Shown here: positions 570-49,612 of the stretch, piece by piece
How the letters are laid out: every line of letters starts with the position of its first letter
How positions within the stretch are numbered: position 1 is the stretch's first letter
Origin: a virus
Length of the DNA stretch: 49,612 nt
IMG/VR virus record: IMGVR_UViG_3300007735_000748
Location: 1-49,612 of that record
Strand: one strand, 5' to 3'
Position numbers and translations under genes: made by a program
The notes under the pieces: generated by a model
What the model saw: only the letters and a program-made list of their open reading frames with translations
Told to the model about the DNA's origin: nothing
Database searches by the model: none

Positions 570-3500
570 ATGACAACGATGATGCTCGACAATCCGCTCG
601 TGGATTTCTCACGGGCGGACTTCTCGTCCTTTGCGGTGCCCAGCCCTGTCCGTGCCGCCGTCACCGACTCCTACATCGAGGAGAACCGGCGAAGCACGCC
701 GCAGTCGGCCATCAACCAACGCCGCACCGAACGTCTCACCGTGTCGGAACTCAACGACATGGACATGGACGAGATCGTCAAGCGGGCGTACATGGTGCCC
801 ATCGACACCCGTGGCCCCGTCACGCGGTTCCTCGACCTCATCGACCTTCCCCGCAACGCCCTGTTCAACCTGGCTGCCGGTGACACGGCACGCCGCAAGC
901 AGGGCATGGGCGACACCGCCGCCCTCGGCCTGCCCCGCGTCAACACCAGCGACGTGCTTGAGTCGCTTGGCGTGAGGCCAGGACTTGTCACGGGCATCGT
1001 TGGGTTTGTCGGCGACGTGGCTCTTGATCCGCTCACGTACGTCGGGCCTGCGGGCTGGGCAACGCAACTGACCGGCAAGGGAGGCAGGACCGCATCGCTT
1101 GTCGCCAAGGGCGGCAAGGTGCTCAACAAGACCGTTGATGAGATCAAGGCTGGTGCCAATATCAGCGACAATCTCGTCCGCGACTACCTTGAGAAGTCCG
1201 GGTACACGGCTGAGAAACTTGCAACGGCGACCAACAAGGAAGAGTTGGCGAGGGAGATCGGCGAGGTTCTCAGCCGTGGCGAACAAGGCAAAATCAACAA
1301 GCTCTTGTCTTGGATTGGCGGCGATGTCGAGTACAAGCCGGTCCTTGGCCGTGGTGAACTTCCCAAAGACATTGCCGGTCCCGTCATCCAACGCAACTCG
1401 CTTGCGGACGACATCACGGGCTACATCGCTCCCGACGCGGACGACGTGACCAAAGCGCGAATCACGGCGGCCAAGGAGTTCTACAAGGCGTACGGCAGGC
1501 CGTTCTCGCCTGGTGTTCGCGTTGTCAAAGACCCCGCCAGCAAGATTGGATTCTCGTTCACCACGAGCAAGAGTGCCCCCAAGGAATCGGCAATCTTCCA
1601 TGTGCCGTTCACGTCGTACGAACTGTCGGTCCCGGCGTTCACCCCGGCGGCACTCCAGCAGGCCAAGGTCGCCGGTCTTGTCAAGAACGCCATGGCTTCT
1701 GGCGAGTACTTCTCGTCGCCGGAAATGAAGCGGGTGATTGATGCGGATGACATCATCAGCGATGCGTTTCGCACCTATCAAGACATCGTGTCGGGAACGT
1801 CCAAGCCACCCGAGGCTTCGGTTGTTGACGTTGCGGGAACGACAAGGCCAATCGACGAAACGGTCAGTGACGTTGCCCCGGAAGTCGTTGATGAAGTCAC
1901 CCGTGCCGAAGCGTTGAACAACCTCAGGGGCACGATCCGAAGCACGCTTGAGGACGTGAAAAGCACGATCGAGAAGATTCAGGCCGACCCCAACGCCAGC
2001 TACGCCGATCTTCTGTACGCCCAAGACATGGCAAGAAAGTCGGAATCGCAGGCACTCGTCATCGAGAAGCAGGAAAAGAACCTGCGAAGGACGATCAAGC
2101 AAGGCCAGGAATTCTCAACCCAGATTCGGCTTGACGCAAAGAAGAAGGTCACGAACAAACTGGAAGAGTTGCGGGTTGCCGCCAAGGAAGAAAACGTCGT
2201 TCGTCAAGAACGCCTTGAGCGTCTTCGCACCAAAGAGCAGGAACTCATCAAGGCACAGGAACTCGCCGACCAGGAAGCGGCACGCACCAACCCTGCTTCT
2301 CCGTTGCCGCCCGACAATCCGTTGTCGGCTGTCAAGGCAAGATACGAAAAGCAGAAGTTGTCTCTTGCCGTCACGCCTGACAACGCAGACCCCGCCAAGA
2401 ACTCGGAAGTCGCCAACCGCAACGATTGGTACGAGTACCGCACGGCTGCACCTGGGTCGGAGAAACGCCAGCAGGCCGTCGCCAAGATCGCCACCAAGGA
2501 AGTCGTCGAGCAAGATCCAAACATCGTCAACCAGATCGAGCCGCTTCCTGAGATTGTCACCGACGAACAGTTTGAGGCGTGGTCCAACGCCATGAAGTCG
2601 GCGGAAACCCGTCGCGTCGTTGCGATGGACGAAGCCGAGTCGATGGCGATGCTTGCAGAGAAAGACTCGCAAGCGTTCACCTACTTCCAGCAAACCGCCT
2701 ATCACTCGGGGGCGGCTCGCGGCAATCTTGAACAGATTGACTTGAACAAGGTCAATGTCGGCGATCGCTGGCAACTTGGCAACCCGGACTTCATTCACGA
2801 AACGCCGCTTCAGATCGAGGTTGTCGGCATCACCGAAGACGGTCTGATTCAGGTCAAGGTCGAGATGCCGCGTCTTCGCCAGAAGAAAACCAAGTGGTTT
2901 GAACGAACGACCAAGGCCGAACAGGAGCGAATGTTCGCCGAAATGCGGGGCAAGCCAACCGAGTACTACCTGCTCGACCCCAATCAGGCGTTCGCGGTCG
3001 CAACCAAGCGAAAGGGCAACCAGCCAACCGTCGTGCGAATGATCGAGACGGAAGGTGCCCAGGCGTTCACCGGCAACATCTCGGAACTCAGGAACACCCC
3101 GAAGTTCTCGTCCAAGGTTGACAAGGTTCGACTTGCCGAGAATGTTCGCAACAACATCCTTGAGAAGTTCAACGCGGGAAAGATCTCCAAGGAAGTGCGG
3201 GATTCATCGCTTCAGAAAAATGGCGATCGGATTGAGGCGTCCATCACTTCGATGGCAAAGCAGATCCACCGCATGACGCGAGACGACGTTCCCGACATTG
3301 ATGTCAACCAGATCAGGGATGTCATCGTCGATGTCGTCAACAACCACCGCGACATCTCAAAGCTGACCGACGACGACATCATCGGTGCCGTCCGCGTCAA
3401 CCTGTTCGCCGAACCAGTCCCGCCAAAGTTCAGGCAGGAAGCGTTCGGTCGAAAGCTGATGAACAAGGCCGACATTCGCACCGAGGCGATGCGGCAGTTG

Positions 3501-6500
3501 AGGATCGCTCCTGAAGATCTCGGCGGCGTCAAGGTCGGCGACAACACCGAGTTTGCCGGAATGACCGAATCGCAGATTCGTCAAACGGTTGCCCAGCGTG
3601 ACATCGACGAGTCGATGCGTCAGATTCGATTCCAGAAGCATCGTGACGTTGAAAGCGCGTACAACGCGGAAATGGGCGCGATCGAGTCCACGTACGAGGC
3701 AAACGTCAAGCAGCAGCAGGAACTCGCTGCGGAAGTTGACAAGCAGCTCCAACGTCGCCTTGCACGCAAGATCAACGAGATCGAGAACGAGTCTGCAAAG
3801 AAGTTGGCCGATGTCGGCATGGACAGGAACGCCGTCGAAGCCGAGCGTGCCGCACGCCAGCAGCGTCTCGACCAGGCGGAAGGCGAAGCCGTCAAGGAGA
3901 TCCTGCGCGACCTCGGAGCAAGCGAAGACGCGCTCGATCCCATTCAGGTCGGCAAGGGTACCGAGTACGAGGGCATGTCGATCGACGACATTCGCAACGA
4001 GGTGTTCAAGAAGCACTCGCTTGAGCACGACAAGAAGTTCGGCATGACCGATCTTCCCAAGTACTACACGGAACAGGAAATCGAAGAGCTGACGGCTCGG
4101 GCCGACTATCTCAACGCCAAGGCCACTGCTGCCGCCGAAGTATCCAACGCCAGCGGAAAGCCGCTTCTTGCGGCAGCAGGAAGCGATGTCGAAGAGGCGT
4201 TCACCAACGCCCGTGTCGCCATGGGACTTGGTGCGGACGACATGGGTTCCGGCGTTATGGCTTCTCTTTCGACCATGACCGAGAAGTTCGCCAGCCGTGG
4301 CAAGGCCGGTGCCGCCATCCACCACGCCGCACGCAATCTTGAACGCACGTTCGTCAACCGGCTCGGTCTGGCACCCGGCATGGCAAACGATGTCATCAAG
4401 CGGTACATCAGGGCACAAGACATCTCGCAAACGGCAGCGTTTCGCCTGTCGATGCAGGACATGATTCAGGCCATCGCCAATTCGGACATCAGGCCCGACC
4501 AGCACAACGAGGCCGCCCAACTCGCCCTTGCTCTCATGTTCGTCGGGGACAAGACCATCGACGAGATGACGAAGATGGCCGGAAGGGACAGGGCGTACAA
4601 GATCGTCATCGACGCCATGAAGGGCGGACTGCTCGACCCAACCGTCAATCCCAACGGCAGCAAGACCATCCGAGAGCTCTCGGCCAAGTACAAGCAGATC
4701 CTCGACAACCTTGATGTCCAAAGCGGCATCTCCGACTACGTTCCCAATGTCCTGACTCCACAGGCACAGAACTTCATCAACTTCCAGCGAGCCAACCAGG
4801 CCAACCTGATCTCGTCCAAGAAGGCCGTTGCCAAAAACGAAGTGGAGTCGGCGGCTGCAAAGTTCATCGAGAGCTTTCAGAAGCCGCGATCCACGATCGA
4901 GCACGCATGGTCCGATTCGGTCGGCAACCAATACACGCTGATGGAATCGGAGATGGCGTACAAGGATTACGGCGGGGAATACATCCAACAGCTCAAGATG
5001 TCAAAGAACGAGGACGAGCGCAGGCTTGGCGAGTACATCGAAAGAGTGCAGAACAAAATCAACGCTTGGGAAAGTCTGACTGAGGTGCAACGCCAAGGAG
5101 CGGACACCTACTACCTGTCGCCGCACGAGATCAACCGTCGCGTCAAGGAAGACGGCATGTTCGGCACCTTGACCAACAAGGCGTTGAACGGCAAGGATTT
5201 CATGTACGCCGATATCGTCAACGCCGTCTCGATGCGTCTTGGCGGCGAAGAGCGAATGCAGGCACAGAAACTCCTTCAGCAGTACGTCGCCCCCTACGAA
5301 CTTCGCGTCAACAGCGTCAATCTTCAGGGTTCCGGCTTGGCCGGTGGCGGCAAAAAGACGTTCACGACAACGAACGGAACGCAAGTCGAACTTGTCAACG
5401 ACAAGGGCGAGTACGTCATCTACATCGGCAACACGCGATACCGTCAGCCCAAGATCAGCGTTTCGGATGAGTTCTCGATTGCCAATGCTCTTTATCGCAC
5501 CAGCGACGGAACGCTGATGAACAACGCCTTCTACCCCGAAAAGATCGCTGACATCATCGAGGATGCGGCAGGATTCTTCGGCAAGCCAAAGGAAGGCAGC
5601 GGATTCGCCAAGGCGTTCGGAATCAACTCCAGTGCCGAAGACAACATCACCGGCATTGTCAAGGCGGCGGAAAAGATCTCGGGATACTGGAAGATCTTTA
5701 CGCTTCTGCACCCGTCATGGACAATCAACGACATCGTTGGCAACCTGTTCCTCATCGCCAACATGGGAATCAATCCCATGCGAATCGTTCGCAAGGCAAA
5801 GGACACCTTCCAATTCACGCAAGCGGTCGCCAGAGGCGATGTCGAAGCCCTCAAGGAAATGACCATTGAAGGCAAGACTGGCCTTGAGCACCTGGCCTCC
5901 CAGCTTGGTTCGATCATCGACACAGCCGGTCACGCGGAAACGTCACGCCAACTTCGCAACACCGGCGAATACGTGGACCCGTACGCCTACTCGATGATTC
6001 GGGCAATGAAGAAACTCGCCAAGGGCGACGTTCAAGGTGCTCGTGCCGAGATGGCCGGGGCGTATCAGGAAACCGTCGCAGCGGCAAGGCAGAGCGTTGC
6101 GGAAACCAAGGCCGTGTCGCCCGAAATGACCGGCGAAAAAGCCAGGGTCGTCATCGACGCGGCGTTCGACAAGACGCTTGTGCGACGAGTGTGGCAGGGC
6201 TGGGCGCACGTCAACGGATTGGCGAACAACTGGCTCAAGGTGTCGGCGTACTTCTGCCTTCTGGAAGACGGCTACGACGCGGCCTCGGCGGCACGCATGA
6301 TCGGCGAGAAGATGCTCGACATGACCGCCGTGACGAGCACCGACCGCAACCTTCGCCGCATGATGCCATTCTACAACTGGATGAAGCACAGCGGCGTGCT
6401 TGGCGTGAGGGAGTTCTTCCGCAACCCCAAGTTCTTTGCCGTCGCCCCCAAGGTCAAGCAGGCGTTGGAGGAGTCGTTCAACGGAGAGGAAAACCTGCCC

Positions 6501-7160
6501 GAAAACGCACGCCCGTCGTGGATTCGTGACCAGCTTGCCTTCCAGATCGGCACGGACCCGGACACGAGGCGTGCCCTGACGCTTACGTCGTCCCTGCCCA
6601 CCGAAGCAGCCACCTACGCGATTTCGTTCCTGGCTTCGCCTTTCCTTGGCTGGGGAGCGTTCCAAGACTCGCTTGCCTACGTCACCAACGCTCTCAACCC
6701 CGTGCCCAAGTCGATCTTGGAGCTCGGAGCACGCAAGGAATTCTTCACCAAGCGAACGATCAGCAGCGAAGGCGGCGACATCACGCCGACCGAATACTTG
6801 CTCAGTCAGGTCCGCCCGTTCCGCGAGCTCGGCATCGGATCGTTGCGTGGTGGTCCGCTCATCCGTGCGTTTGAGGACGATCCTGTTCTCGGCCTCAGCC
6901 GCCTTGCGATTGGCGGACGCTTGCAGCCGTTCGAGGAAGAACGTCGTGTGCAGAACTTGCAGCGGGAATACGACGAGCGCGTGGATGCGTTGCGACGACG
7001 CATTGGCATCGCCGAACGCGAGAGCCAGAAGGACGAGTCGCTTCGCAAGCGAATCGAACTGCTGCGGCTCTTCAATCAGATGGAAGGACTGGGCCTGACC
7101 GTGCCCAAGTGGGCGAGCAGGCAGATCGAGCAGGTGAACCAGGCACAGGCCGCACCCTGA
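570..7160 (+). CDS. Giant (2,196-aa) virion-associated protein, large polyvalent / internal core type
   Basis: The start at 570 has an AAGGA site just upstream. Long charged coiled-coil stretches lie around residues 450-600 and 1050-1190. A hydrophobic motif (HPSWTINDIVGNLFL, about residue 1713) and a second one (PFYNWMKHSGVLGVREFF, about residue 1933) match, from memory, the very large structural proteins of many environmental phages whose C-terminal part carries an NPSYH-like and a PFYTW-like box. An internal repeat with a shared core (VG..TE, then GM and IR) occurs near residues 984 and 1125. The gene is the last late gene before the convergent leftward operon. Family knowledge points to ejection with the DNA or to an inner core role, but no catalytic motif was seen, so the function stays inferred. 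Confidence 0.8.
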   Translation: MTTMMLDNPLVDFSRADFSSFAVPSPVRAAVTDSYIEENRRSTPQSAINQRRTERLTVSELNDMDMDEIVKRAYMVPIDTRGPVTRFLDLIDLPRNALFNLAAGDTARRKQGMGDTAALGLPRVNTSDVLESLGVRPGLVTGIVGFVGDVALDPLTYVGPAGWATQLTGKGGRTASLVAKGGKVLNKTVDEIKAGANISDNLVRDYLEKSGYTAEKLATATNKEELAREIGEVLSRGEQGKINKLLSWIGGDVEYKPVLGRGELPKDIAGPVIQRNSLADDITGYIAPDADDVTKARITAAKEFYKAYGRPFSPGVRVVKDPASKIGFSFTTSKSAPKESAIFHVPFTSYELSVPAFTPAALQQAKVAGLVKNAMASGEYFSSPEMKRVIDADDIISDAFRTYQDIVSGTSKPPEASVVDVAGTTRPIDETVSDVAPEVVDEVTRAEALNNLRGTIRSTLEDVKSTIEKIQADPNASYADLLYAQDMARKSESQALVIEKQEKNLRRTIKQGQEFSTQIRLDAKKKVTNKLEELRVAAKEENVVRQERLERLRTKEQELIKAQELADQEAARTNPASPLPPDNPLSAVKARYEKQKLSLAVTPDNADPAKNSEVANRNDWYEYRTAAPGSEKRQQAVAKIATKEVVEQDPNIVNQIEPLPEIVTDEQFEAWSNAMKSAETRRVVAMDEAESMAMLAEKDSQAFTYFQQTAYHSGAARGNLEQIDLNKVNVGDRWQLGNPDFIHETPLQIEVVGITEDGLIQVKVEMPRLRQKKTKWFERTTKAEQERMFAEMRGKPTEYYLLDPNQAFAVATKRKGNQPTVVRMIETEGAQAFTGNISELRNTPKFSSKVDKVRLAENVRNNILEKFNAGKISKEVRDSSLQKNGDRIEASITSMAKQIHRMTRDDVPDIDVNQIRDVIVDVVNNHRDISKLTDDDIIGAVRVNLFAEPVPPKFRQEAFGRKLMNKADIRTEAMRQLRIAPEDLGGVKVGDNTEFAGMTESQIRQTVAQRDIDESMRQIRFQKHRDVESAYNAEMGAIESTYEANVKQQQELAAEVDKQLQRRLARKINEIENESAKKLADVGMDRNAVEAERAARQQRLDQAEGEAVKEILRDLGASEDALDPIQVGKGTEYEGMSIDDIRNEVFKKHSLEHDKKFGMTDLPKYYTEQEIEELTARADYLNAKATAAAEVSNASGKPLLAAAGSDVEEAFTNARVAMGLGADDMGSGVMASLSTMTEKFASRGKAGAAIHHAARNLERTFVNRLGLAPGMANDVIKRYIRAQDISQTAAFRLSMQDMIQAIANSDIRPDQHNEAAQLALALMFVGDKTIDEMTKMAGRDRAYKIVIDAMKGGLLDPTVNPNGSKTIRELSAKYKQILDNLDVQSGISDYVPNVLTPQAQNFINFQRANQANLISSKKAVAKNEVESAAAKFIESFQKPRSTIEHAWSDSVGNQYTLMESEMAYKDYGGEYIQQLKMSKNEDERRLGEYIERVQNKINAWESLTEVQRQGADTYYLSPHEINRRVKEDGMFGTLTNKALNGKDFMYADIVNAVSMRLGGEERMQAQKLLQQYVAPYELRVNSVNLQGSGLAGGGKKTFTTTNGTQVELVNDKGEYVIYIGNTRYRQPKISVSDEFSIANALYRTSDGTLMNNAFYPEKIADIIEDAAGFFGKPKEGSGFAKAFGINSSAEDNITGIVKAAEKISGYWKIFTLLHPSWTINDIVGNLFLIANMGINPMRIVRKAKDTFQFTQAVARGDVEALKEMTIEGKTGLEHLASQLGSIIDTAGHAETSRQLRNTGEYVDPYAYSMIRAMKKLAKGDVQGARAEMAGAYQETVAAARQSVAETKAVSPEMTGEKARVVIDAAFDKTLVRRVWQGWAHVNGLANNWLKVSAYFCLLEDGYDAASAARMIGEKMLDMTAVTSTDRNLRRMMPFYNWMKHSGVLGVREFFRNPKFFAVAPKVKQALEESFNGEENLPENARPSWIRDQLAFQIGTDPDTRRALTLTSSLPTEAATYAISFLASPFLGWGAFQDSLAYVTNALNPVPKSILELGARKEFFTKRTISSEGGDITPTEYLLSQVRPFRELGIGSLRGGPLIRAFEDDPVLGLSRLAIGGRLQPFEEERRVQNLQREYDERVDALRRRIGIAERESQKDESLRKRIELLRLFNQMEGLGLTVPKWASRQIEQVNQAQAAP

Positions 7161-8043: not shown

Positions 8044-8300
8044 TGCTTCTGCTCCCTGAGTTTGAGATCGCACCTGATGTTCAGGATCACCGATTCCTCA
8101 CGGTGACACTCCACGGGCACAAGATCATGCTTGCCGACGTACCGCATCCCCAACTTCCCGTTCGACAACAACACCGCGACCTTCACCCGTTTCTCGGTGA
8201 TTGCCACGATCACGCACGGCACAAGCCCGACGTAGTGATTCTCGTTGCACTTCCACACCGCCGCCCCATTGACTACCAGTTCCAAGCTCACCTCCATCAT
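8040..8300 (-). CDS. Hypothetical protein (86 aa)
   Basis: The protein alternates short beta-like stretches (VVNGAAVWKC, LVPCVIVAITEKRVKVAVLL) and has no motif I can name. The ATG at 8300 overlaps the PAPS-reductase-like gene's stop as ATGA. A GGAGG lies just inside the frame, so a TTG at 8285 is a possible alternative start. Coupling to both neighbours supports it as a real gene. Confidence 0.6.
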   Translation of the reverse strand: MMEVSLELVVNGAAVWKCNENHYVGLVPCVIVAITEKRVKVAVLLSNGKLGMRYVGKHDLVPVECHREESVILNIRCDLKLREQKQ

Positions 8301-9028
8301 TCATCCATGCAGGCACACGGCAGATCGTTGGCGGCATCGGCAAACAACTGACCACCGTCACGCCATTCCCGAGCCGTCTTGTTTCCCCACTGATTCAAGC
8401 GTTGACCACGAACTTCTGCCGCCTTGTCCTCAAGCCGAACAATGCGCTCAAACTTGCATGGAGCAGAAATCGAAAGTGTAATGACTTCTTTGACTCGCAT
8501 AAACGGGCAATGCCAACACCCGGACTTGACCGGCAAAGGCAGTCCAGCAGCAATGATTGCCTCACGACATTCTTCTGGTCCCCAACCAAGTTCAATCAGC
8601 GGCCATCGCTTTTCGTCTTTATCTTGCTGACCTTGCCGAGCACGATGCTGCTCATCGGCATGAATGCCAAGCAGTTGAATCACCTTGAGGTCCTTGTGCG
8701 TGTGCGCCTTGATGTGCTTGCCGATCGGAACAATCTTTGCATGATCGGTGCAGGCACGATTGATGCGACTTCCAGTCACGTTCAAGCGTTCCCATCGTTC
8801 AAGCACGCCTTCTTGTCCACGACATACCTCAATCGTCACGCCATGCTTGCGAGCGTACGGCATGGCATGTTGGTACAGGTATTCGTACGTTTCCTCGCGT
8901 TCGTCTTGGGTGTCGCTGAACACCACGCGAAACGGGTGTGCGTCGATCTTTTTCTCGATCAACGCCACCAGCAACGCCGTCGAGTTGACGCCAGCACCGT
9001 ACGACAGCCAATGCATCAAATTGCTCAT
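8297..9028 (-). CDS. PAPS-reductase-family PP-loop protein (243 aa)
   Basis: The N-terminus carries a PP-loop variant, SYGAGVNSTALL at residues 9-20, the nucleotide-binding loop of the adenine-alpha-hydrolase fold shared by PAPS reductases, DndC and other phage sulfurtransferase-like proteins. Paired cysteines occur at C171 and C174 (GCWHCPF), with others at C69 and C93, as in family members that bind a metal or Fe-S cluster. The start at 9028 has a GGAG site. The usual SGGKDS is changed to YGAGVNS, typical of phage versions. Substrate unknown: sulfate assimilation, phosphorothioation or tRNA thiolation are all possible. Its base composition looks more AT-rich than that of the neighbours. Confidence 0.75.
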   Translation of the reverse strand: MSNLMHWLSYGAGVNSTALLVALIEKKIDAHPFRVVFSDTQDEREETYEYLYQHAMPYARKHGVTIEVCRGQEGVLERWERLNVTGSRINRACTDHAKIVPIGKHIKAHTHKDLKVIQLLGIHADEQHRARQGQQDKDEKRWPLIELGWGPEECREAIIAAGLPLPVKSGCWHCPFMRVKEVITLSISAPCKFERIVRLEDKAAEVRGQRLNQWGNKTAREWRDGGQLFADAANDLPCACMDE

Positions 9029-12967: not shown

Positions 12968-13042
12968 CCGCGCCCCTTGAATGGGTCGCGGCCGATTCAC
13001 CCTTGGAACGTCCAAGGGTCCGCCCCCTATGGAAAGGATCCG
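12968..13042 (+). promoter_or_regulatory. Double-hairpin leader module 1
   Basis: Hairpin A: CCGCG (12968-12972) with CGCGG (12987-12991), plus CCC/GGG inside. Hairpin B: a perfect 9-base stem (12999-13007 with 13011-13019) and loop acg. Then ATGGAAAGG (13029-13037) as SD before the ATG at 13043. Same order as at seven other small genes. Confidence 0.7.
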
Positions 13043-14958: not shown

Positions 14959-15041
14959 CGTCGCGGCACGGGGGAACCCGGCCGCGACGATTCACCCCCT
15001 GCAACGTGCGGGGGTTCGCACCCTATGGAAAGGGGCTAATC
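14959..15041 (+). promoter_or_regulatory. Double-hairpin leader module 4
   Basis: Hairpin A: CGTCGCGG (14959-14966) with CCGCGACG (14982-14989), a perfect 8-base stem. Hairpin B: ACCCCC and GCA (14994-15003, one bulged T) with TGC and GGGGGT (15007-15015), loop acg. SD ATGGAAAGGGG, then a GTG start at 15042. Confidence 0.7.
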
Positions 15042-15638: not shown

Positions 15639-15654
15639 ACGTACACTCACGCCG

Positions 15655-15725
15655 CCGCCGCCCCGTAACCGGGACGGCGGACGCTTTCCCCCTTGCATGG
15701 TGCAAGGGGGCCGAGGAGTAGCATC
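15655..15725 (+). promoter_or_regulatory. Double-hairpin leader module 5
   Basis: Hairpin A: CCGCC (15655-15659) with GGCGG (15676-15680) and CCC/GGG inside around gtaacc. Hairpin B: a perfect 10-base stem (15688-15697 with 15701-15710), loop tgg. SD GAGGAG, then the ATG at 15726. Confidence 0.7.
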
Positions 15726-16567: not shown

Positions 16568-17401
16568 ATGCTGTTATCTCGATTCATCGCCGAGTACAAG
16601 CGGCCCGAGCTTCGCCGGTCCACGGTCGCCGGGCACCTGGTGTCCCTTGGGATGCTCGCCGCCACCATGCCCCCCACGGCCACGGTCGCCGCCGTCAAGC
16701 GTGCGAACGTGCTCCGCATGATTGAGGGGGGCGCGGCCAAGGGACTGACGCGGGCGACGCTGGCGAAGCACGGAAGGTACATCGGGGCCGCCATGGAATA
16801 CGCGGTGCGGTTGGGGATCATCGCGGAGAACCCCGCCCGCAACCTGGGCGTGAAGCACAACGCCCGCCCGAAGGACTGGGAGTACGTCACCGCCGCCAGC
16901 GTCGAGGCCGTGCTCGCCGGGGTCGAGTGCGAGCATCTAAGGGGGGCGATCGCCGTTGCAAGGTGGGCGGGTTGCCGCGTCAACGAAGTGCTCCGTCTCC
17001 AGTGGGACGATGTTGACTTGCAAGGGGGGACGATCGTGATTCACCCCACGCCCGACGATTGGGGCCGGTGCGAGGAGGGCACAAAGGGACGCCGCCGCGT
17101 CGTTCCCCTCGATCCTCGCGTGCGAATGTACCTTCCGACAAGGGGGGACGACAAGTACGTCTGCGGGTCGTTACGGTACCGTCAATACGGTCGCCTGCTC
17201 AAGAGGGTGGCGACGTGGGACGGGGCACCCTGGCACACGCTGCGGAAGAGCTGCGGCATGGACTGGGCGGATCTCGTGCCGATCAGCACCGTCGCGGACT
17301 GGATGGGGCACACGGTCGCGGTCGCATCGCAGTACTACCTTCGCCCGCACGCAAAGCACTTCGCCGCAATCACGTCCCAAAATCCTGTCAACATGGGTTG
17401 A
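16568..17401 (+). CDS. int: Tyrosine recombinase / phage integrase (277 aa)
   Basis: Catalytic residues are readable in order: R137 (GCRVNEVLRLQWDDVD), K173 (GTKGRRRVVPL), H223 and R226 (PWHTLRKSCG), H248 (WMGHTV) and Y257 as nucleophile, nine residues after H248 as in XerD. The N-terminal 100 residues form the usual helical core-binding domain; an arm-binding domain is missing, which makes this a short integrase. The start at 16568 sits three bases from the hairpin G-run. Expected reaction: site-specific integration and excision. No attP core could be identified without a host sequence; the next 100 bases are the likeliest place. Confidence 0.9.
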   Translation: MLLSRFIAEYKRPELRRSTVAGHLVSLGMLAATMPPTATVAAVKRANVLRMIEGGAAKGLTRATLAKHGRYIGAAMEYAVRLGIIAENPARNLGVKHNARPKDWEYVTAASVEAVLAGVECEHLRGAIAVARWAGCRVNEVLRLQWDDVDLQGGTIVIHPTPDDWGRCEEGTKGRRRVVPLDPRVRMYLPTRGDDKYVCGSLRYRQYGRLLKRVATWDGAPWHTLRKSCGMDWADLVPISTVADWMGHTVAVASQYYLRPHAKHFAAITSQNPVNMG

Positions 17402-36578: not shown

Positions 36579-37214
36579 ATGTCTGTTCGCAACATCACCA
36601 CGAATCAGCTCGTCAACGGCTACATCAGCAACGGCTGGTACAACGGTCGCAAGTCCACGACCGTTCGCCAGCGGTGCAACCTGGTCCACGGCTCCGCTTT
36701 CTTCGCCCTCAACACCCAGCTTCCTCCACGAGCCCGTCTCGTGTGGGCCGAGGTGCTGACCGTTCCCGCCGCCAGCAACAACGGCACCAACGGAACGGTT
36801 GTTGCTACCGGAAACGATGCAACCAACACCGCCAATTGCTATGCGTTGATGGTTCACCCCACGACCGGCACGCAGCCGCTCACTCAGCCGCAAACCGCGA
36901 CTGTTTCCAACCCTGCTGGCGGCACCAACGGATACATGGCTCTCATCACTCCGGGCCTGACTACCGATGCCACCAACCAGGCTCGCGGCATTCCGCTCAA
37001 CTTTGGTACTTCTGCAACCAACTTTGTTCAGAATACCAACACGGTTGCGGCTCTCATTACGCTTCAGCCCGCTTTCACAAATAGCAACCGCGTGTATGCC
37101 AGCGGCACCAGCGGATTTGTGTTTGGCACCAGCACCGGCGCGTCAACCAACACCGCCGGTCTTGTGGACGTGACCCTCTACATCGAGGATTACGACCAGG
37201 CTCCCTATGCCTAA
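36579..37214 (+). CDS. Beta-rich virion protein (211 aa)
   Basis: Thr/Asn/Ala-rich strands (TNGTVVATGNDATNTANC; PQTATVSNPAGGTNGYM), as in fibre or decoration proteins. CCAGGAGATTCACGC supports the ATG at 36579 rather than 36561. Slight similarity in style to the 36132 protein. Overlaps the next frame if that starts at 37207. Confidence 0.55.
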   Translation: MSVRNITTNQLVNGYISNGWYNGRKSTTVRQRCNLVHGSAFFALNTQLPPRARLVWAEVLTVPAASNNGTNGTVVATGNDATNTANCYALMVHPTTGTQPLTQPQTATVSNPAGGTNGYMALITPGLTTDATNQARGIPLNFGTSATNFVQNTNTVAALITLQPAFTNSNRVYASGTSGFVFGTSTGASTNTAGLVDVTLYIEDYDQAPYA

Positions 37215-38523
37215 CCAAGTGGACAGGGTATTATCCTGTCCAATGAAGCAGACATCAGACGATCACACGGGAAGGGGCGATTCCAGCGATGGGGTCGCCC
37301 TTTCTGTTCCGCTCAAGCTCAACATCGGTGCTGGCAACATCAAGATTGATGGATACACGCCAATCGACATCAAGGATGGGATTGACGCAATCAAACTGCC
37401 ATATCCAGATGAAAGCGTTGACGAGGTGTATGCCTCACACGTCCTTGAGCATTTTCCGTACGAGAAGACTTCTCAAGTTCTCGGCGAATGGGCAAGAGTT
37501 CTGAAGCCCAACGGAATCATGCGAATCGGCGTTCCAGACATGGCGAAGATCGTTGGATCGTGGGGCGAAGCCAGCAAGAAGAACCTGTCTCGGTATCTCC
37601 TTGGAGGACACATCGACAAGGATGATGTTCACGGAGCCGTGTTTGATGAAGACATCCTTCGCATTGCCATGCAACAAGTTGGCATTGGATGGGTTGAACA
37701 TTTTGAGCCATTTGCGGAAGACACGACAAAGCATCCCATCAGCTTGAACATGCAGGGAAAGAAGCGTCACTGGGCCAAGATTGAAAACCCTCGCGTCACC
37801 CTTGTTCTTTCTCAGCCACGACTTTCGTTCACCGATCATTGCGAGCGTTTGATTGCGCTTGCTCAACACATGAAATTCGGGATCATTCGTGCTTCCGGGG
37901 CTTTCTGGGATAGGGATATCGAGATCGCCACGCAAGGGGCAATCCAATCTGACAACCCCGATTTCTTGTTGTACAGCGACTACGACAGCGTGTTCAACCC
38001 GGACGACGTGACCAAGCTCATTGAAACGATCAACAACAATCCGACGATGGCGGCAATTGGTGCGGTGCAAATGAGTAGGCATGACGACAAGCCGCTCGTG
38101 TTTGAGTATCACCGCGATTATCGAGAGGCGATCACTAGGGTTGATTACCAGCACTTCGGATTGATGGTCATTCGCAGACAAGTGTTTGAGGAAATGCCTA
38201 CTCCGTGGTTCTGGTCTACGCCTGGCATGGACGCAAATGGCAATGTCGGATGGAGCAATGGAATTCGGAGCGACGGAGACATCACGTTCTGGCGGATCAT
38301 GCGAGAACATGGTTTCAAGGTCTACCAGCACAACGAGGTCGTGATCGGCCACATGGTGCTGTGCGTCAAGTGGCCCAAGGATTCCGGCTACGGCGTGCAG
38401 CTCCAGCCCATCGAGAACTACAACCGGCACGGCAAGCCGAGCAATGCTAAAATTGACCAGGACATCTACCGCAAGCGGATGGAAGAGGAAGCCAAGAAAC
38501 GGCAAGGAATGACCAATGGCTGA
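37207..38523 (+). CDS. Fused SAM-dependent methyltransferase and GT-A glycosyltransferase (438 aa)
   Basis: Residues 36-110 form a class I methyltransferase: LNIGAG (38-43), VLEHF (79-83) and LKPNG (99-103). Residues 195-390 read as a GT-A glycosyltransferase with D258-Y-D260 (LYSDYDSVF) and a metal-type setting. Such fusions modify surface glycans or glycosylate virion proteins. Start at 37207 or 37243 (36 bases downstream, just behind a hairpin) cannot be resolved. Visibly more AT-rich than the neighbours, so perhaps acquired. Confidence 0.75.
   Translation: MPNQVDRVLSCPMKQTSDDHTGRGDSSDGVALSVPLKLNIGAGNIKIDGYTPIDIKDGIDAIKLPYPDESVDEVYASHVLEHFPYEKTSQVLGEWARVLKPNGIMRIGVPDMAKIVGSWGEASKKNLSRYLLGGHIDKDDVHGAVFDEDILRIAMQQVGIGWVEHFEPFAEDTTKHPISLNMQGKKRHWAKIENPRVTLVLSQPRLSFTDHCERLIALAQHMKFGIIRASGAFWDRDIEIATQGAIQSDNPDFLLYSDYDSVFNPDDVTKLIETINNNPTMAAIGAVQMSRHDDKPLVFEYHRDYREAITRVDYQHFGLMVIRRQVFEEMPTPWFWSTPGMDANGNVGWSNGIRSDGDITFWRIMREHGFKVYQHNEVVIGHMVLCVKWPKDSGYGVQLQPIENYNRHGKPSNAKIDQDIYRKRMEEEAKKRQGMTNG
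37221..37241 (+). promoter_or_regulatory. Perfect hairpin GGACAGG / CCTGTCC at a start codon
   Basis: A 7-base stem with loop gtattat ends one base before the ATG at 37243. If that ATG is used, the hairpin would cover the ribosome site. If the start is 37207, it is inside the coding sequence. Confidence 0.4.
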
Positions 38524-41914: not shown

Positions 41915-42271
41915 ATGGCGATCATCAACGACACCATCAAGTTCTACTTCGGGGTCGTGACCGGCGTGTCTGGCGAACGAACCGCCGCGTCCCTGTCGTA
42001 CAGCTACGTCGCCGACAACATCAACGATCACAACAACCGCATCATCTCGACCCAACCGGCCAAGCCACGGCGACCGTTCGACGGCGAGATTGAGATTGAG
42101 GAACCGCTTGCGATCGGTGCGGCGATTATGGTCTTTGAGCGAAACCGAGATCGCACGCTCATCCTGATCGACCAAGAAAAGTACGCCGTGACCGAGTGCG
42201 GCGAGCCCGGCCCCGGCGGCAGACCGCTCGGACTGGCGAGGAACATGATGCGAGGAGCAACGATCCGATGA
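41915..42271 (+). CDS. Hypothetical protein (118 aa)
   Basis: Beta-rich ([37 protein letters not shown]), one base after the previous stop and overlapping the adhesin gene as ATGA. Function unknown; likely a tail part. Confidence 0.5.
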
Positions 42272-44559
42272 GCACTCCCGTCCCGTCCATTGAAACGGGT
42301 TTGACCAACAACGAGCTCAGCACGACGAACCGTGCCTGGTACTCGTTTGACGTGTCGGCGTACACGTCGATCGCCATCCAGACGTTCGCCGCACCCGGAA
42401 CGACGTGGCCGACCGGCGTGAGCCTCGACGTTGAGACATCGCTTGACGGCGGCAAGAACTGGTCGTCCCTGATCGAACCACGGCTGTACTACGCAGCCAA
42501 GGTTCACCCCCGGATCGACGTTCACGACCTCAAGAAGATCCGCGTCCGCATCTCGACCACCGGATCGTCGGCGAACATCCGCGTCGTCGTCTACGGCGAT
42601 GCGTCCGACGTTCTTCAGGTCGCCAACCCCGTCGAGACGAACGGCAACTATGGCGTGTTCTGCTCGACCACCGACCAGACTGTCGGCAATGCCACGGCCA
42701 CGCCAATCACGTTCGACACAACCGAGGAAGCGTCAGGCGTTCAGATCGACACGTCGGTCACGAGCAGGATCGTCGTGCTCAAGGGCGGCGTCTACAACTT
42801 CCAGTTTAGTGCCCAGTTACGGCACACGACGGGTGGCACCGAGCATGTGAGCGTGTGGTTCCGAATCAATGGAACCGATGTTCCACGGAGCAACACCGAC
42901 TACGCCATTCAGGGGAACAACGCCGCCGAGGTCATGGCGTGGAACTACGTGGCAACTCTTGCCGACAACGACTACTTTGAGATCGTCATGTCCGCCACGG
43001 ACAGCGACATCAGCTTGGACTACATGGCGGCGGCGACGAGCCCGACGCGACCGGTCACGCCTAGCGTGATCTTGACCGTCACCCAGGTTCCGTTCCAAGG
43101 TGCGGATGGTCCTACTGGACCCGCAGGATCGACCGGAGCGACCGGTGCCACTGGCCCGACCGGCGCGACCGGCCCCGCCGGCGCGACCGGCCCGGCTGGT
43201 GCCACGGGACCGACCGGGGCAACGGGACCGCAAGGCCCCGGCTTCGTGTGGCAAGGCACATGGTCATCGCTGCTGACATACGACGTTGATGACACGGTGT
43301 ACTACAACGGCTCGTCGTACATCTGCATCTTGAGCAGTACGAACAACATTCCGTCGTCGTCGCCGACGTACTGGTCATTGGTCGCACAGCAGGGCGACAC
43401 CGGGGCAACGGGTCCGGCGGGCGCGACTGGTCCCGCAGGAGCGACAGGACCGACAGGCGCGACTGGTCCAACGGGTGCAACCGGCCCGGCCGGAGCGACT
43501 GGACCCACTGGGGCGACGGGGCCAACAGGGGCATCCACGTTCCTCGCCCTGACCGATACGCCATCGTCGTACAGCGGCCAAGCGTTCGAGTTCACGCGAG
43601 TCAACAGCGGCGAGACGGCGTTGGAGTTTGCCAACCCGCTAGGCAATCTGGTTTACGGCGACGGCTCGGACGGCGCGGCCACGATCACCACGACCGTCAC
43701 GCTGACCGAAAACAAGAACTACACCGACCTTACGATCAACGGCGGCGGCCAAATCAACGCAGCATATCGAATCAACTGCACCGGAACGCTCACCATCGGC
43801 GATGCCGGTGGTGGTGGTGCCGGAACCATTCGACGCAACGGGACCAACGGTGGCAACGGTGCCGCGACAACGACGGGCGGAACCGCGGGCACTGCTTACA
43901 GTTCAGCCATCGCGGTATATGGCAGTGGTGCCGGTACTGCTGGCGGTGCTGGCGGCACAGCCGCAGGAACGCAGGCAACGGCACCTTCGGCCGTGTCGGC
44001 GTGGATAAGCAATGCGACCGGAACCGGCGGTGCTGGTGGTGCCGGTTCAGGCGGTGCTGGCGGTGCAAGCCGCGCCGGTGCTGGCCTTGCTTCCATTCGT
44101 GCCAACCACAACATTGCAATTCACTTCGCCCTTGGCTATACGAGCCTGGCGGCAACGGCTTCGGGTGGTGGCGGTGGCGGTGGCGGAGGTGGCGACGGAA
44201 CCGCTGGCGGTGGTGGTGGCGGTGGCGGCGGTGGCGGCGGTCACGTTGCCATCAACGCCAAGAACATCGTGCTTCACGCCAATGGAACGATACAAGCATT
44301 GGGCGGCAACGGCGGCAACGGAGGCTCGCCAACCGCTGGCAACCGTGGCGGAGGCGGTGGTGGTGGTGGCGGCGGTGGCGGCCTCATCTCGCTCATCTAC
44401 GACACCTTCACGAACAACGGCGGCACTATCAGTCAAGCAGGCGGAACGGGTGGTACGGCAGGCACCGGATTCGGCACTGGCGTCGCCGGTACGAACGGTG
44501 CGGCTGGTGCTAGCGGCCCGGTTTACAAGTACAACATGCTGAAGGGAACCTTCGAATGA
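42268..44559 (+). CDS. Adhesin/fibre with collagen repeats, a carbohydrate-binding-like insert and polyglycine region (763 aa)
   Basis: The N-terminal 270 residues are beta-rich. Two Gly-X-Y blocks (about 278-325 and 376-420, [13 protein letters not shown] type) flank an insert with [20 protein letters not shown], then SSYICIL, resembling CBM5/12 chitin-binding modules. From about residue 510 there are Gly-rich runs up to a dozen long, like the polyglycine tips of T4-like gp38 adhesins. Predicted receptor binder. SD GAGGAGCAACGATCCG. Confidence 0.8.
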
Positions 44560-44960
44560 TCCACGACCTTCGCTGTCAGGTCACCGGCGTCGTGGTCGGC
44601 ACCCTGGAATTGCCCGATGACATGCCTGCCGATGAAGTGCTGCGGCGGACATACACCGAGTCCGGCGTGGTGGCCGAGGGCGTGCCTGTCGCAGACCCGG
44701 TGCCAGACGCCGCCTCGCCCGCGACCATCCGCGTGGCCCTGCGGCGGCTGCACGGCATCACGAACGCCGCGCTCGACGCCACCGTGCAGGCCGTGCTTGC
44801 GGGCATTGCCGATCCCGGCGAACGCGACGACGCCGAGACCCTGTGGATGTACTCCGTCTCGATCCGCCGCGACCATCCGCTAGTGGCCGCCGTGGCCGTG
44901 GCCTTCAACCTGACCGATGCCCAAGCAGACGACGTGTTCAGACTCGCTGCGACGATCTAA
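44556..44960 (+). CDS. Fibre-associated protein (134 aa)
   Basis: Two parts: strand-rich start ([20 protein letters not shown]) and helical end ([22 protein letters not shown]). ATGA overlap with the adhesin suggests joint production, as with fibre assembly chaperones. No motif found. Confidence 0.5.
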
Positions 44961-44996: not shown

Positions 44997-45833
44997 ATGG
45001 CAACGGTGACTTTTACTGGAACGACAAGCGGCGACATGACCGTCGCCACCAACTACGCCGGTGGCGTTGCCCCCGTTAGTGGAGACAGCGTGATCTTCAA
45101 CACCGGCAGCCGCAACGTCACGGTCGGACCCGGCAGCACGGTTGATCTTGTTGACGTGACTTGCACCTCGGGCTGGTCCGGGTCGTTTGGAACACCTGGA
45201 TCGCCCATCACGTTCCAGTCTGTCAGCGGTACGTTCACTTGGGCCGGTAGTGGCGACGGGTGCTACATCTCGGTCGCCAGCGGCAAGACCATCGCCAACT
45301 TTGTCGCCCAGCGTGGCTTTGGGGCGATCTCGGGAGCTGGCACGGTCACGTCGTTCTACAACGAGACGGCTGACTTCAACCTGACCCTAACTCGACTCGA
45401 TGCCTACTACGGCATGACCCCCACCAGCCGCATCACGATCGGTACGTCGGCCACCGCCGTCGCCAACGAGTCGTTCTCGTACGGCACCGTGACCGTCACT
45501 GACCGCACCGTGACGACCGCTCGCATCATCGGCAAGAATGGACGCATGTACATGAACGGAACGACGGCCCAGACCACGACGTTGCATGTCAACGAAGGTG
45601 CGATCTACAACAGTCTGAGCAGCGGCACGATCACGACCGCGAACGTGAGCGGCATGAACTCGCTCATCACCCCAGTCAACTCGCCGTACACCTCGGCGAC
45701 GATTTCAAACCTCAACCAGTTCTCGGGCGGCAAGTACGTGCAGTACGCGAACGGCTCCAACTTCGCCATCACGAGCCTCAAGTCGTACGGATCGCAGACG
45801 GCCTCGATGCCCGCTGGTGGCTTTGAATCGTGA
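44997..45833 (+). CDS. Beta-helix-like fibre protein (278 aa)
   Basis: Repeated short strands with Thr/Ser/Gly turns (VTFTGTTSGDMTVATNYAGG; VTVTDRTVTTARIIG) run through most of the protein, as in right-handed beta-helices of tail fibres. AGAAGGAC precedes the ATG. No catalytic residues of a depolymerase were identified. Confidence 0.55.
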   Translation: MATVTFTGTTSGDMTVATNYAGGVAPVSGDSVIFNTGSRNVTVGPGSTVDLVDVTCTSGWSGSFGTPGSPITFQSVSGTFTWAGSGDGCYISVASGKTIANFVAQRGFGAISGAGTVTSFYNETADFNLTLTRLDAYYGMTPTSRITIGTSATAVANESFSYGTVTVTDRTVTTARIIGKNGRMYMNGTTAQTTTLHVNEGAIYNSLSSGTITTANVSGMNSLITPVNSPYTSATISNLNQFSGGKYVQYANGSNFAITSLKSYGSQTASMPAGGFES

Positions 45834-47248
45834 AACTCTCGCTGAAGGCAGTCAATGGCAAGCTTCGACTTCTCGCCCAGCGTGTCGGGCAGGGGTTGAA
45901 GTTTGTTCTTGATTGCTGCTGTGAGACGCAGGGCGAACCGGATCTTCACTTGTTTTATGAGTGCTGTGATCCGGTGCCTAGGTTTGCCATTACCAATCAA
46001 GCGTACAACGCACTGACTTCTCGGTGTCCACAAGTAGATCCTCCGCAATTAATGCTTGTCAAGTTTCGCGGTGCAGAAAACAACATCTGTTATCGAGAAG
46101 GAGACTTAGGCAACGGGCGAATTTCACGAGAAGAAGCGGTGCGACTCGGATACACAATCTACGAAACGCCTGCAACTTTTGATTGCAGCCGTGGAGATGG
46201 AACCAGGGACAACAGATGCGGATGGAGCGGTTGTAGGCAATGCTACCCAAATCAATGCTGTTTGACACAGTTGTATGATAAAGAGTGTTCATTGTCTCTG
46301 TTGATTCCCAACAGCGTTCCTAAAAAAAACGTGTGCTGCAACTATGGCCGAGTGCTTAGGCGACGGGCTTCTTATTCACAGACAATCCAACACTTTCGAC
46401 GAACATTTCTCAATCAAGGCGTGTCAGATTCGTTTTGTGCCGCAGGGTGCTACGCACCGCTCAACAGAGATCGTGAATACGAACAGCTTGTTTACAACAT
46501 TGAAGACGAATTCACCAAATGCTTTGACAACGGCGATCCCGTTGGCTCCGATGGATCATGGCTTCAAAGGAATTTGAGAAACGATCGGTATTATCGAGTT
46601 GAGAGGATTCGCACGGTGTACGGATTTGATGGCGATCCAAATCTTCCGACATGCTTGTCGTCGAGAGACGAAGTGTTGTCTGACTTGACGATCAACGACA
46701 ACAACGTCCCCAACAACAACACGATCTTTCCGTTCTTTTGGCCTAACCGACTTCAACGGATAAATTCTCAGCCACTTCCACCAAGAGACAATTGCTTTGG
46801 CTTTTGGTTCTTGCCGTTTTACCCGGCAATTCTCAACACTCCAAACACATACTTTCCGTTTGGAGAAGCACAAATTCAATGCGATGATGTGTATGGTCAC
46901 GTTTACGAGTGCATCATTGCATACGGAACATACCGTCTAAAAATCATCACCGACAGGTACACCCACAGCGCGTCGTGCAATCAAGGGCAATATTCGCTTG
47001 CCTACGCAGTTGAGGTGTATTCTCACAGGCCTCAAGGATGGCCCGAGAACGAGCCGCTTTGCCCACCCGAAAACACGCTTCTTGAACGATTCAGGATTGA
47101 CGTGTCTTGCACTTATTTTATTGAAACGCTGTCTAGAACCAACTGCGACCCACAGACGTGCAATGGGTACGCAAAAACGGGAAACATGACTCCGGTTCCG
47201 TTTCCCCTGCTTCCCCAGCCCATCCAAGGTGCCCTCAACCTGCTATGA
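45830..47248 (+). CDS. Cysteine-rich extracellular-type protein (472 aa)
   Basis: GTG start at 45830 overlaps the previous stop as GTGA. About 36 cysteines, often clustered (FVLDCCCETQG; NRCGWSGCRQCYPNQCC), implies many disulfides or metal sites. Pro/Asn/Tyr-rich between them. Base composition is visibly lower in GC than the genome. In a fibre cluster; a receptor-binding or wall-crossing role can only be guessed. No signal peptide. Confidence 0.65.
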   Translation: MKLSLKAVNGKLRLLAQRVGQGLKFVLDCCCETQGEPDLHLFYECCDPVPRFAITNQAYNALTSRCPQVDPPQLMLVKFRGAENNICYREGDLGNGRISREEAVRLGYTIYETPATFDCSRGDGTRDNRCGWSGCRQCYPNQCCLTQLYDKECSLSLLIPNSVPKKNVCCNYGRVLRRRASYSQTIQHFRRTFLNQGVSDSFCAAGCYAPLNRDREYEQLVYNIEDEFTKCFDNGDPVGSDGSWLQRNLRNDRYYRVERIRTVYGFDGDPNLPTCLSSRDEVLSDLTINDNNVPNNNTIFPFFWPNRLQRINSQPLPPRDNCFGFWFLPFYPAILNTPNTYFPFGEAQIQCDDVYGHVYECIIAYGTYRLKIITDRYTHSASCNQGQYSLAYAVEVYSHRPQGWPENEPLCPPENTLLERFRIDVSCTYFIETLSRTNCDPQTCNGYAKTGNMTPVPFPLLPQPIQGALNLL

Positions 47249-47658
47249 CCTGCGGCTGCACCACACCCCCCACCTCGGCCTCGACCCGTGCCGCCATGTG
47301 CCAGACATGCCCGCACGCCGTCAAGGAACGCGGCTCGGCCATCCAATGCACCGTCAACGGGTCCGCCGTGATGACCATCGCCATGACGACCGATCCCTGC
47401 CCCGCAGGACGCTTCGACGGCACCAGGGTGCGTTGGGCGGGGGTCGAGTGGCTGGGCGTCCCTGAGCCCCTTCGCTGGCTGCTGACGTGGCAACTCAAGC
47501 GAGAGCCCCGCAACCTCGACGGATGCGGGTGCATCAAGACCGTCAAGGAGTCTCAGATCGGCCCGTGGATCGAAACGTGGTTTGAGGGAATCACCCTGTT
47601 GCGTAAGCGTTTTGGCGAGTTCCTAACGGAATTTCAGGTCGCCATGCGTGGCGTATAA
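47245..47658 (+). CDS. Small Cys-rich protein (137 aa)
   Basis: The N-terminal half has C3, C5, then MCQTCPHAVKERGSAIQC and TTDPCPAGRFDG, a zinc-finger or disulfide pattern; the remainder is Trp-rich (RWAGVEWLGVPEPLRWLLTW). ATGA overlap with the 472-aa Cys-rich gene links the two. GC content returns to the genome level. Function unknown. Confidence 0.55.
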   Translation: MTCGCTTPPTSASTRAAMCQTCPHAVKERGSAIQCTVNGSAVMTIAMTTDPCPAGRFDGTRVRWAGVEWLGVPEPLRWLLTWQLKREPRNLDGCGCIKTVKESQIGPWIETWFEGITLLRKRFGEFLTEFQVAMRGV

Positions 47659-47681: not shown

Positions 47682-49612
47682 ATGGCCTACGACCCTCAGA
47701 ACCCGCTCGACGCGATCACTGGCGAACGTGCCAAGCGTGGCAAGAAGAACCAGTCCACGTTTGAGGATCGCAACAAGATCACGGTCACGGGGCCTGACGG
47801 AAAGCCAATGAAGGTGCAGGGAAGCCGTGGCCCCGGCGGCCTGATGGCAGTATCGCCTGAAGACCTTGCCAACGCGGCAATCCAGCGTCGAGCGGCTACC
47901 GGCCAAGTTGAACGTCCGCAAAGCGGCATGGGTGACGTTCGCATGGCCGAACGCAATCCCGACCCTGTGCAGCCGCGAGGATTGTTTGGCCGACTTGCTA
48001 ACGTCCCACCCCAACCAGCTCGCGGCGGAATCCCTGCTTCTTCGCCACCGGCAGCTGAAACCGCTTCGCAAACCATCCGGCCCAAGGGAGTGTTTGGTCG
48101 CATGGTTGGCGGTGAAGTGCGTGAAGCAACTCAGCCTCGGGTTGGCATGGGCGACGTGCGGATGCGTGAACGTGAAGTTGAGCAGCCGGTTGCGACACAG
48201 CCAGCCGCCAAGCAACCTGTTCCTCAAGTTGGTCCGCCGCCTGCACGTCCTCGCATGGACATTTCCGACGCCATGTTCGGCGACACCGGACTTCAAACGA
48301 TCGGTCAAGCCATGCGTCAGGCACCGCCACCCGAGCGAGGGTTGACGCGAGAGATGAACGAACAGATCTTGCGTGATGTGTTGGCTGGTGAAGCACAACG
48401 TCTTCGCGGAATCAAGCGTGAAGATGATGCGTTGTCTCGCGCCTTCCCCGACGTTTCGTTCCGTCCCAAACAGCAATCTGTCGATCAGCCTGCTCAACAG
48501 CCGCAAGGGTTTGTTGGCCCCGACCGCCAGTCCAATATCGCCCGAGCCGACCAGCTCCGTGCCCAGATCGCATCCGAGCAGCAAGCCATGCTTGCGGCTC
48601 GCCGTGCCCGTGGCGGCTCGTTCCGCGAGGACACCGCCCCGCTTGAACGCATCGCCGGTATGCGTCAGGAGCTCGCCCAGTACGAGCGTGCGGCAACGCC
48701 TAGTCAACCGATTCGCGTCAAGACTCCCGAGGAGAACTTGGCGACCGAGCAGAGCCTTGCACGCCAGGCGTCCGACATCATGTCGAAGGACGTTGCGGAT
48801 CTTCGTGCTCAGGTCGCCTCGATGCCCGCCGGTCCCGAGCGTGACGCACAGGCTGAACGTCTGCGTTCGCTTGAGTTCCAACAGCAGCAGCAGGGTGCCC
48901 GTGCTGGTGCTTTGCCCGCCGGTGCAGTCGGTCCTCAGCCGATGGGTGCATCGGTTGGCCTGTCTGAGCAGATGCTCGGCGAAGCCCGTGCCCGCACCGA
49001 ACGTCAGCGTGAAGCTGCTCCCCGTGTCGCCGCCCGCCAGCAGGAACTTGCCGACGTTGCCATGCGTGAAGGCGAACGGCTCACGGGCAAGCGACAGGAC
49101 GCTGAACAGCAGAGAGCTGATCTTGCCCGTGCAACGCGAGAGGCGACACTTGCCGGGTTGTCCGCACCTGAACGAATGCGTCAGGAAGCGATCGCTACGG
49201 AGCAGGCCAAACGCGCGGCACTCACCACCAAGACCGGCATCGAAACCGAAGAGTCCAAGGCTCGTGTTGCCAAGATCATGTCTGAAATTGGCGTTGAAGA
49301 ATCAAAGGCACGCATGGTCGAAAACCAACTGCGTGAGTTCTACGACGACAAGCAAATACGCCGTCGTGCCCAAGAACTTGACTTTGAATCCAAGTCGCTT
49401 GACAACGAACTCAAGCGTGCTCAGGTTGAAATGCAGAAGAAGGGCATGGCCTTCAACCCTGAAATGGCCGCAATGCAAGACGCTGCCGTTGCCAAGTCCA
49501 TGGAGAGGCTTGGCATCAGTGCTGCGGATGAAGATGTTGTTCGGCAGGCCGCTGAAGGGCTCAAGCAGAACATTGACAAGACGACGTACACGGTTCCGTC
49601 CGATGCGATGCA
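47682..49612 (+). CDS. 5' part of 787-aa internal virion / tape-measure-like protein (runs into position 1)
   Basis: ATG at 47682 follows GGAGTTGACCA. The frame is open to the end of the window and continues, across the 127-bp overlap, to the stop at 560. N-terminal 220 residues carry two imperfect repeats: GMGDVRM at 82-88 and 155-161, and a G(L/V)FGR box at 100-104 and 136-140. After that comes Gln/Ala/Arg-rich coiled coil, then the Gly/Ala hydrophobic region near residue 704. 787 aa of helix could measure a tail of about 115-120 nm, or serve as an ejected core protein. Confidence 0.75.
   Translation, partial: MAYDPQNPLDAITGERAKRGKKNQSTFEDRNKITVTGPDGKPMKVQGSRGPGGLMAVSPEDLANAAIQRRAATGQVERPQSGMGDVRMAERNPDPVQPRGLFGRLANVPPQPARGGIPASSPPAAETASQTIRPKGVFGRMVGGEVREATQPRVGMGDVRMREREVEQPVATQPAAKQPVPQVGPPPARPRMDISDAMFGDTGLQTIGQAMRQAPPPERGLTREMNEQILRDVLAGEAQRLRGIKREDDALSRAFPDVSFRPKQQSVDQPAQQPQGFVGPDRQSNIARADQLRAQIASEQQAMLAARRARGGSFREDTAPLERIAGMRQELAQYERAATPSQPIRVKTPEENLATEQSLARQASDIMSKDVADLRAQVASMPAGPERDAQAERLRSLEFQQQQQGARAGALPAGAVGPQPMGASVGLSEQMLGEARARTERQREAAPRVAARQQELADVAMREGERLTGKRQDAEQQRADLARATREATLAGLSAPERMRQEAIATEQAKRAALTTKTGIETEESKARVAKIMSEIGVEESKARMVENQLREFYDDKQIRRRAQELDFESKSLDNELKRAQVEMQKKGMAFNPEMAAMQDAAVAKSMERLGISAADEDVVRQAAEGLKQNIDKTTYTVPSDAM
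49486..49612. repeat. Terminal direct repeat, right copy
   Basis: Exact copy of positions 1-127. Joining the two copies restores one uninterrupted reading frame (47682 to the end, then on to 560), which supports circular closure over chance similarity. Confidence 0.9.

Follow-up and report, generated by a model that had tools for sequence, protein, structure and literature searches.

A cysteine-rich gene pair behind a phage fibre gene is a candidate exchangeable host-recognition cassette

Receptor-binding proteins of Klebsiella phages are described as modular, an N-terminal anchor being joined to a C-terminal part that confers specificity and can be exchanged (PMC8262889). The unrelated Alteromonas phages A5 and V22 are reported to have in common a host-recognition module composed of a tail fibre and its cognate chaperone (PMC10579305), and in lambda gpL and related tail-tip proteins four cysteines are described as holding an Fe-S cluster (PMC10721106, PMC10276861). 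Here we describe two adjacent cysteine-rich genes in the fibre locus of IMG/VR virus record IMGVR_UViG_3300007735_000748 (the window: the whole stretch analysed, 49,612 nucleotides). The pair is real and conserved, matched no family in the libraries searched, and shows strong signs, at the level of sequence, of being an exchangeable host-recognition cassette. We put the probability at roughly 0.6 that the larger protein is an exchangeable host-recognition protein of the distal tail or fibre tip, made up of a short handle and a cysteine-framed body and served by a small partner.

With identical 127-base ends (bases 1-127 and 49486-49612), the record represents a complete-looking genome that is circular or terminally redundant. 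The phage may be temperate, to judge from an integrase-family gene at 16568-17401, and a search for tRNA genes as a hint to the host found none in the record. Terminase and P22-like portal genes lie farther upstream of the fibre genes. The fibre locus, on the plus strand, begins with a collagen-like tail fibre gene (42196-44559, start codon uncertain; Pfam Collagen 3.4e-11, several PHROG tail fiber families, best 4.6e-33), followed by the gene for a small conserved fibre-locus protein (44556-44960; phrog_6034, E 3.2e-12) whose counterparts are 81% identical in relative L013 and 67-68% identical in L003/L004. Directly upstream of the cysteine-rich open reading frame (ORF), a cysteine-poor fibre-like protein of 278 aa (44997-45833) is 24-29% identical to the product of the fibre gene at the same place in the seven relatives compared. 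The cysteine-rich ORF (45830-47248, plus strand) starts with a GTG inside the stop of this gene (GTGA, stop at 45831-45833), and ends in an overlap with the start codon of the partner gene, the ATG at 47245 (ATGA). The partner (47245-47658, plus strand) has 137 aa and eight cysteines in CxC, CxxC and GCGC motifs, which bears out the original prediction, made from the sequence alone, of a cysteine-rich protein in the fibre region paired with a second one.

Elsewhere in the record, a 2196-residue protein with one cysteine is encoded at 570-7160 (nothing in Pfam at E up to 0.01, only a weak PHROG match), and a PAPS-reductase-domain protein at 8297-9028 on the minus strand (Pfam 3.7e-7). Between 12940 and 16215, short repeated leaders precede small ORFs: the leader consists of the hairpin CCTTGGAACGTCCAAGG and then CGCCCCCTAYGGAAAGGA at 13000 and 13586, with a variant at 14996 (three copies, zero expected), and a related C-rich repeat family occurs at 15650, 15873 and 16178, with hairpins CCTTGCATGGTGCAAGG at 15691 and 15914. 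Amid the structural genes, a low-GC gene (37207-38523, 52%) combines a methyltransferase part with a glycosyltransferase-like part; in L002, a counterpart exists only for the residues from about 195 on. L002, found through the capsid gene, ends within the collagen-like fibre gene and was left out of the comparisons below.

As single-protein queries against viral contigs, neither the cysteine-rich body nor the product of the next gene (47682-49610) returned a relative. The partner as query found relatives and led to a homologous body, 30% identical, on two contigs, the phrog_6034 neighbour brought L013, and the fibre gene brought 11 loci. The whole cysteine-rich gene is present in nine of the 11 IMG/VR loci fetched, all nine of which also hold the small cysteine-rich partner; in the remaining two, the contig stops too early (L021 after 130 residues, L026 in the fibre gene). 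The gene order fibre, cysteine-rich, small cysteine-rich recurs in all loci long enough (9/9). Loci L003, L004, L009, L010, L014 and L015 duplicate the two contigs of L023 and L024 and were not recounted. In L025, a 181-residue ORF (L025:9813-10358) without Pfam or PADLOC match is inserted between the cysteine-rich gene and the partner.

The homology search proposed as a check on the original prediction thus succeeded in IMG/VR but not among named phages or cellular genomes. By tblastn, named phages and plasmids gave no match beyond those of E 0.6 or worse to the type II partner and to the handle (both defined below), and neither of two scans with both family alignments, through 84,980 genomes of bacteria and archaea, returned a relative or pointed to a host. 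The suggested planctomycete host with a proteinaceous wall finds no evidence in these scans, and a survey of the literature at the level of titles brought up neither support for the wall link nor a recognisable account of a comparable phage tail protein. For the cysteine-rich protein and its relatives, nothing usable came from Pfam, PHROGs, NCBIfam, PADLOC or PDB sequences. Likeness of the partner to DUF6171, which we take to be a family of small CGC proteins, was considered and rejected, as Pfam gave nothing at E up to 10 for three partners, two of type I and one of type II.

The bodies fall into two types. Type I bodies have 441-472 aa and 27-29 cysteines (window, L019, L020, L022, L023, L024), and type II bodies have 301-314 aa and 11-15 cysteines (L013, L017, L018, L025). 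Profile-profile comparison joins the two types (Prob 95.9, E 6e-9), and the match is confined to columns 1-45, just past a CCC motif. The sole part common to both is an N-terminal handle of about 30 residues ending in CCC, which in the window comprises residues 1-31 (45830-45922, plus strand). The type of the partner tracks that of the body in 10/10 loci, window included, a match that is suggestive but not proof, being statistically weak because only about six lineages (3 vs 3) can be distinguished. The window partner is 51-52% identical to the partners of five relatives. AlphaFold models of the body (three-row alignment; pLDDT 29.7, pTM 0.21) and of the partner (six rows; pLDDT 50.4) were too poor to use.

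Among three type I lineages with pairwise identities of 27-35% (window, L023, L019), 25 of 28 cysteines are invariant, compared with 50 of 444 other residues (Fisher 5e-19; a separate three-row realignment gave 52 invariant non-cysteine residues). No other residue with five or more occurrences is more than 27% invariant, and none of the five histidines is. Because aligners favour Cys-Cys matches, we made 60 control alignments with shuffled alignment partners, which contained on average 3.9 and at most nine invariant cysteine columns. Chance does not explain the conservation of 25 of 28 cysteines across lineages this divergent. Type II bodies keep 10 of 15 cysteines (L013, L017, L025), and in each of the two partner types all eight are invariant (four rows counted for the window partner), the CxxC and CGC motifs included.

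The chief rival reading, if on balance an unlikely one, is a tail-tip protein in which the cysteines coordinate metal (Fe-S or Zn) and the fold is held by clusters instead of disulfides. Such proteins, with four cysteines around an Fe-S cluster, are known in lambda and in roseophage R4C (PMC10721106, PMC10276861), the invariant type I cysteines include the tight groups CCC, CC, CxxC and CC, and the CxC, CxxC and CGC motifs of the partner would suit a metal site. However, the 25 invariant cysteines are spread over 416 residues with a single CxxC spacing and no invariant histidine, and a profile search of PDB chains, Fe-S proteins included, gave zero matches at E up to 10. For the role of the cysteines we favour disulfides, because the spacing is wide, CxxC occurs only once and no histidine is invariant. 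They would most likely pair after the virion has left the reducing cytoplasm. That cytoplasm counts against disulfides, and we noticed no thiol oxidase in the set of genes scanned; moreover, 25 is an odd number, so not all invariant cysteines can pair within one chain.

Closely related loci indicate how the pair evolves. L017 and L018 have two exact blocks in common, one of 3,264 bp with its end close to the fibre gene's 3' end, the other of 862 bp starting behind the partner. Between these flanks, their bodies are 58% and their partners 73% identical, and L018 carries extra sequence behind the partner inside the exchanged stretch. Between L019 and L023, identity is 88% for the fibre, 32% for the body and 71% for the partner. 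Between L013 and L018, synonymous divergence is alike in the fibre and cysteine-rich genes (dS 0.15 and 0.16), dN is 0.013 and 0.050, respectively, and the partner is unchanged at the protein level; the codon changes (28 synonymous, 24 nonsynonymous) vary in kind, and no bias to adenine positions, as in targets of a diversity-generating retroelement, was seen by eye. As a counter-example, the cysteine-rich gene is conserved between L019 and both L022 and L020 (dN 0.004-0.005). Divergence of the cassette would also fit any fast-evolving locus. Of the features that characterise receptor-binding modules, the locus displays a conserved N-terminus joined to an exchangeable body, exchange of the body in otherwise identical phages and a matched downstream partner. 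The exchange between near-identical relatives supports the host-surface role originally proposed for the protein, which we consider likely.

L023 and L024, which have the cysteine-rich gene in common, diverge where the collagen-like fibre gene ends (L023:6475-7300), between flanks that match at 92-98%, so the fibre locus holds a second exchange point there.

Another reading makes the protein a late non-virion accessory (for cell-surface modification, superinfection exclusion or as a lysis aid) that evolves fast through arms races and sits in the fibre operon by chance. Accessory genes do occur between structural genes, and a PADLOC scan gave nothing either way. We nevertheless find this explanation doubtful, given the constant place of the gene, next after the fibre gene in every relative whose contig reaches that far, the handle common to proteins with exchangeable bodies, and the lack of any hydrophobic or membrane segment seen by eye. 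The short conserved handle, the exchangeable and fast-changing bodies, the place behind the fibre and the matched small gene are as expected of a host-recognition cassette.

The composition of the gene in the window speaks to its origin. The cysteine-rich ORF encodes 28 cysteines in 472 aa (5.9%), so the length originally given was right and the count of about 36 too high; as had also been stated, no signal peptide is apparent, in that no hydrophobic signal-like N-terminus was seen by eye. Its GC of 48.6% and GC3 of 51.2% stand against means of 60.2% (sd 3.5) and 78.1% (sd 8.0) in a hand-picked set of 31 other coding sequences (z ~ -3.3 and -3.4). Both values are the lowest of the 32, in agreement with the earlier observation that the gene is more AT-rich than the genome; equal GC with its neighbours, named in advance as counting against that view, was not what we found. 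Among all 1419-bp windows of the record (50-bp steps), those lowest in GC start at 45,701-45,851. Sliding GC is 0.57-0.60 before the tract coding for the exchangeable body (about 45,900-47,180, taken as 45905-47180, plus strand), 0.43-0.55 within it and 0.65-0.71 just after it, the last range holding across most of the partner gene.

Low GC is a property of the window allele and not of the gene, because the homologous gene in relatives has 63-68% GC, about four points or less from its own locus. It is highly improbable that the gene, for all that its GC and GC3 are the lowest of the set, is a foreign one that this phage alone has gained, recently and with no earlier past at the locus, as relatives of normal GC carry the same cysteine framework and partner at the same place. 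The recent gain originally proposed does not hold for the gene, the pair being established in every relative long enough; at most the body allele was replaced, which is possible. Since only the body is low in GC, it probably derives from a source of lower GC or took shape in one, and because the partner is normal in GC and the body AT-rich, the two do not seem to have arrived together in the window.

We infer from sequence comparison the virion location of the protein, docking by its handle, receptor binding, the disulfides and the role of the partner. As a host-recognition protein, it would dock through the first 30 or so residues to the tail, or to the fibre encoded by the preceding gene, and the rest would serve as a scaffold in which some 25 fixed cysteines hold fast-changing surface loops. 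The small downstream gene would supply a matched assembly partner, either a chaperone or a thiol or metal maturation factor, and body and partner would be inherited in one cassette. Specificity would change by recombination of the cassette, or of the body alone, through the conserved upstream fibre and downstream genes. A bolder version, which we hold to be quite unlikely as a whole, takes its lead from the invariant CxxC and CGC motifs of the partner: this would be a dedicated thiol-disulfide or metal-loading factor for a hyper-cysteine adhesin, which would fold or stay unlocked in the reducing cytoplasm until a disulfide cage locks on the virion. Hypervariable host-binding loops would have in this cage a scaffold of general use, exchanged with them as a cassette.

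Phage adhesins are usually described as beta-rich trimers in which cysteines play little part. If the host-recognition reading is true, an adhesin with a cysteine framework and a matched cysteine-rich partner would be an unfamiliar architecture, one that raises the question of its route of oxidation or metallation, and the pair L017 and L018 would offer a ready natural experiment on cassette versus host.

Set against the systems described, the locus shares with lambda gpL functional cysteines and, as we would place it, a tail-tip location; it differs in having about 25 invariant cysteines where four are described for gpL, and no sequence match was found (PMC10721106, PMC10276861). With the module of A5 and V22, it shares a specificity gene followed by a small cognate gene, the two moved as a unit in matching versions, whereas the word cysteine is absent from the main text of that report and the partner here is cysteine-rich, with a putative chaperone role (PMC10579305). 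Compared with the modular receptor-binding proteins described in Klebsiella phages, the bodies here are cysteine-framed and without a match to any known family, the handle has only about 30 residues and the function is putative, but the conserved N-terminus, the exchangeable body and the swaps between similar phages are the same (PMC8262889).
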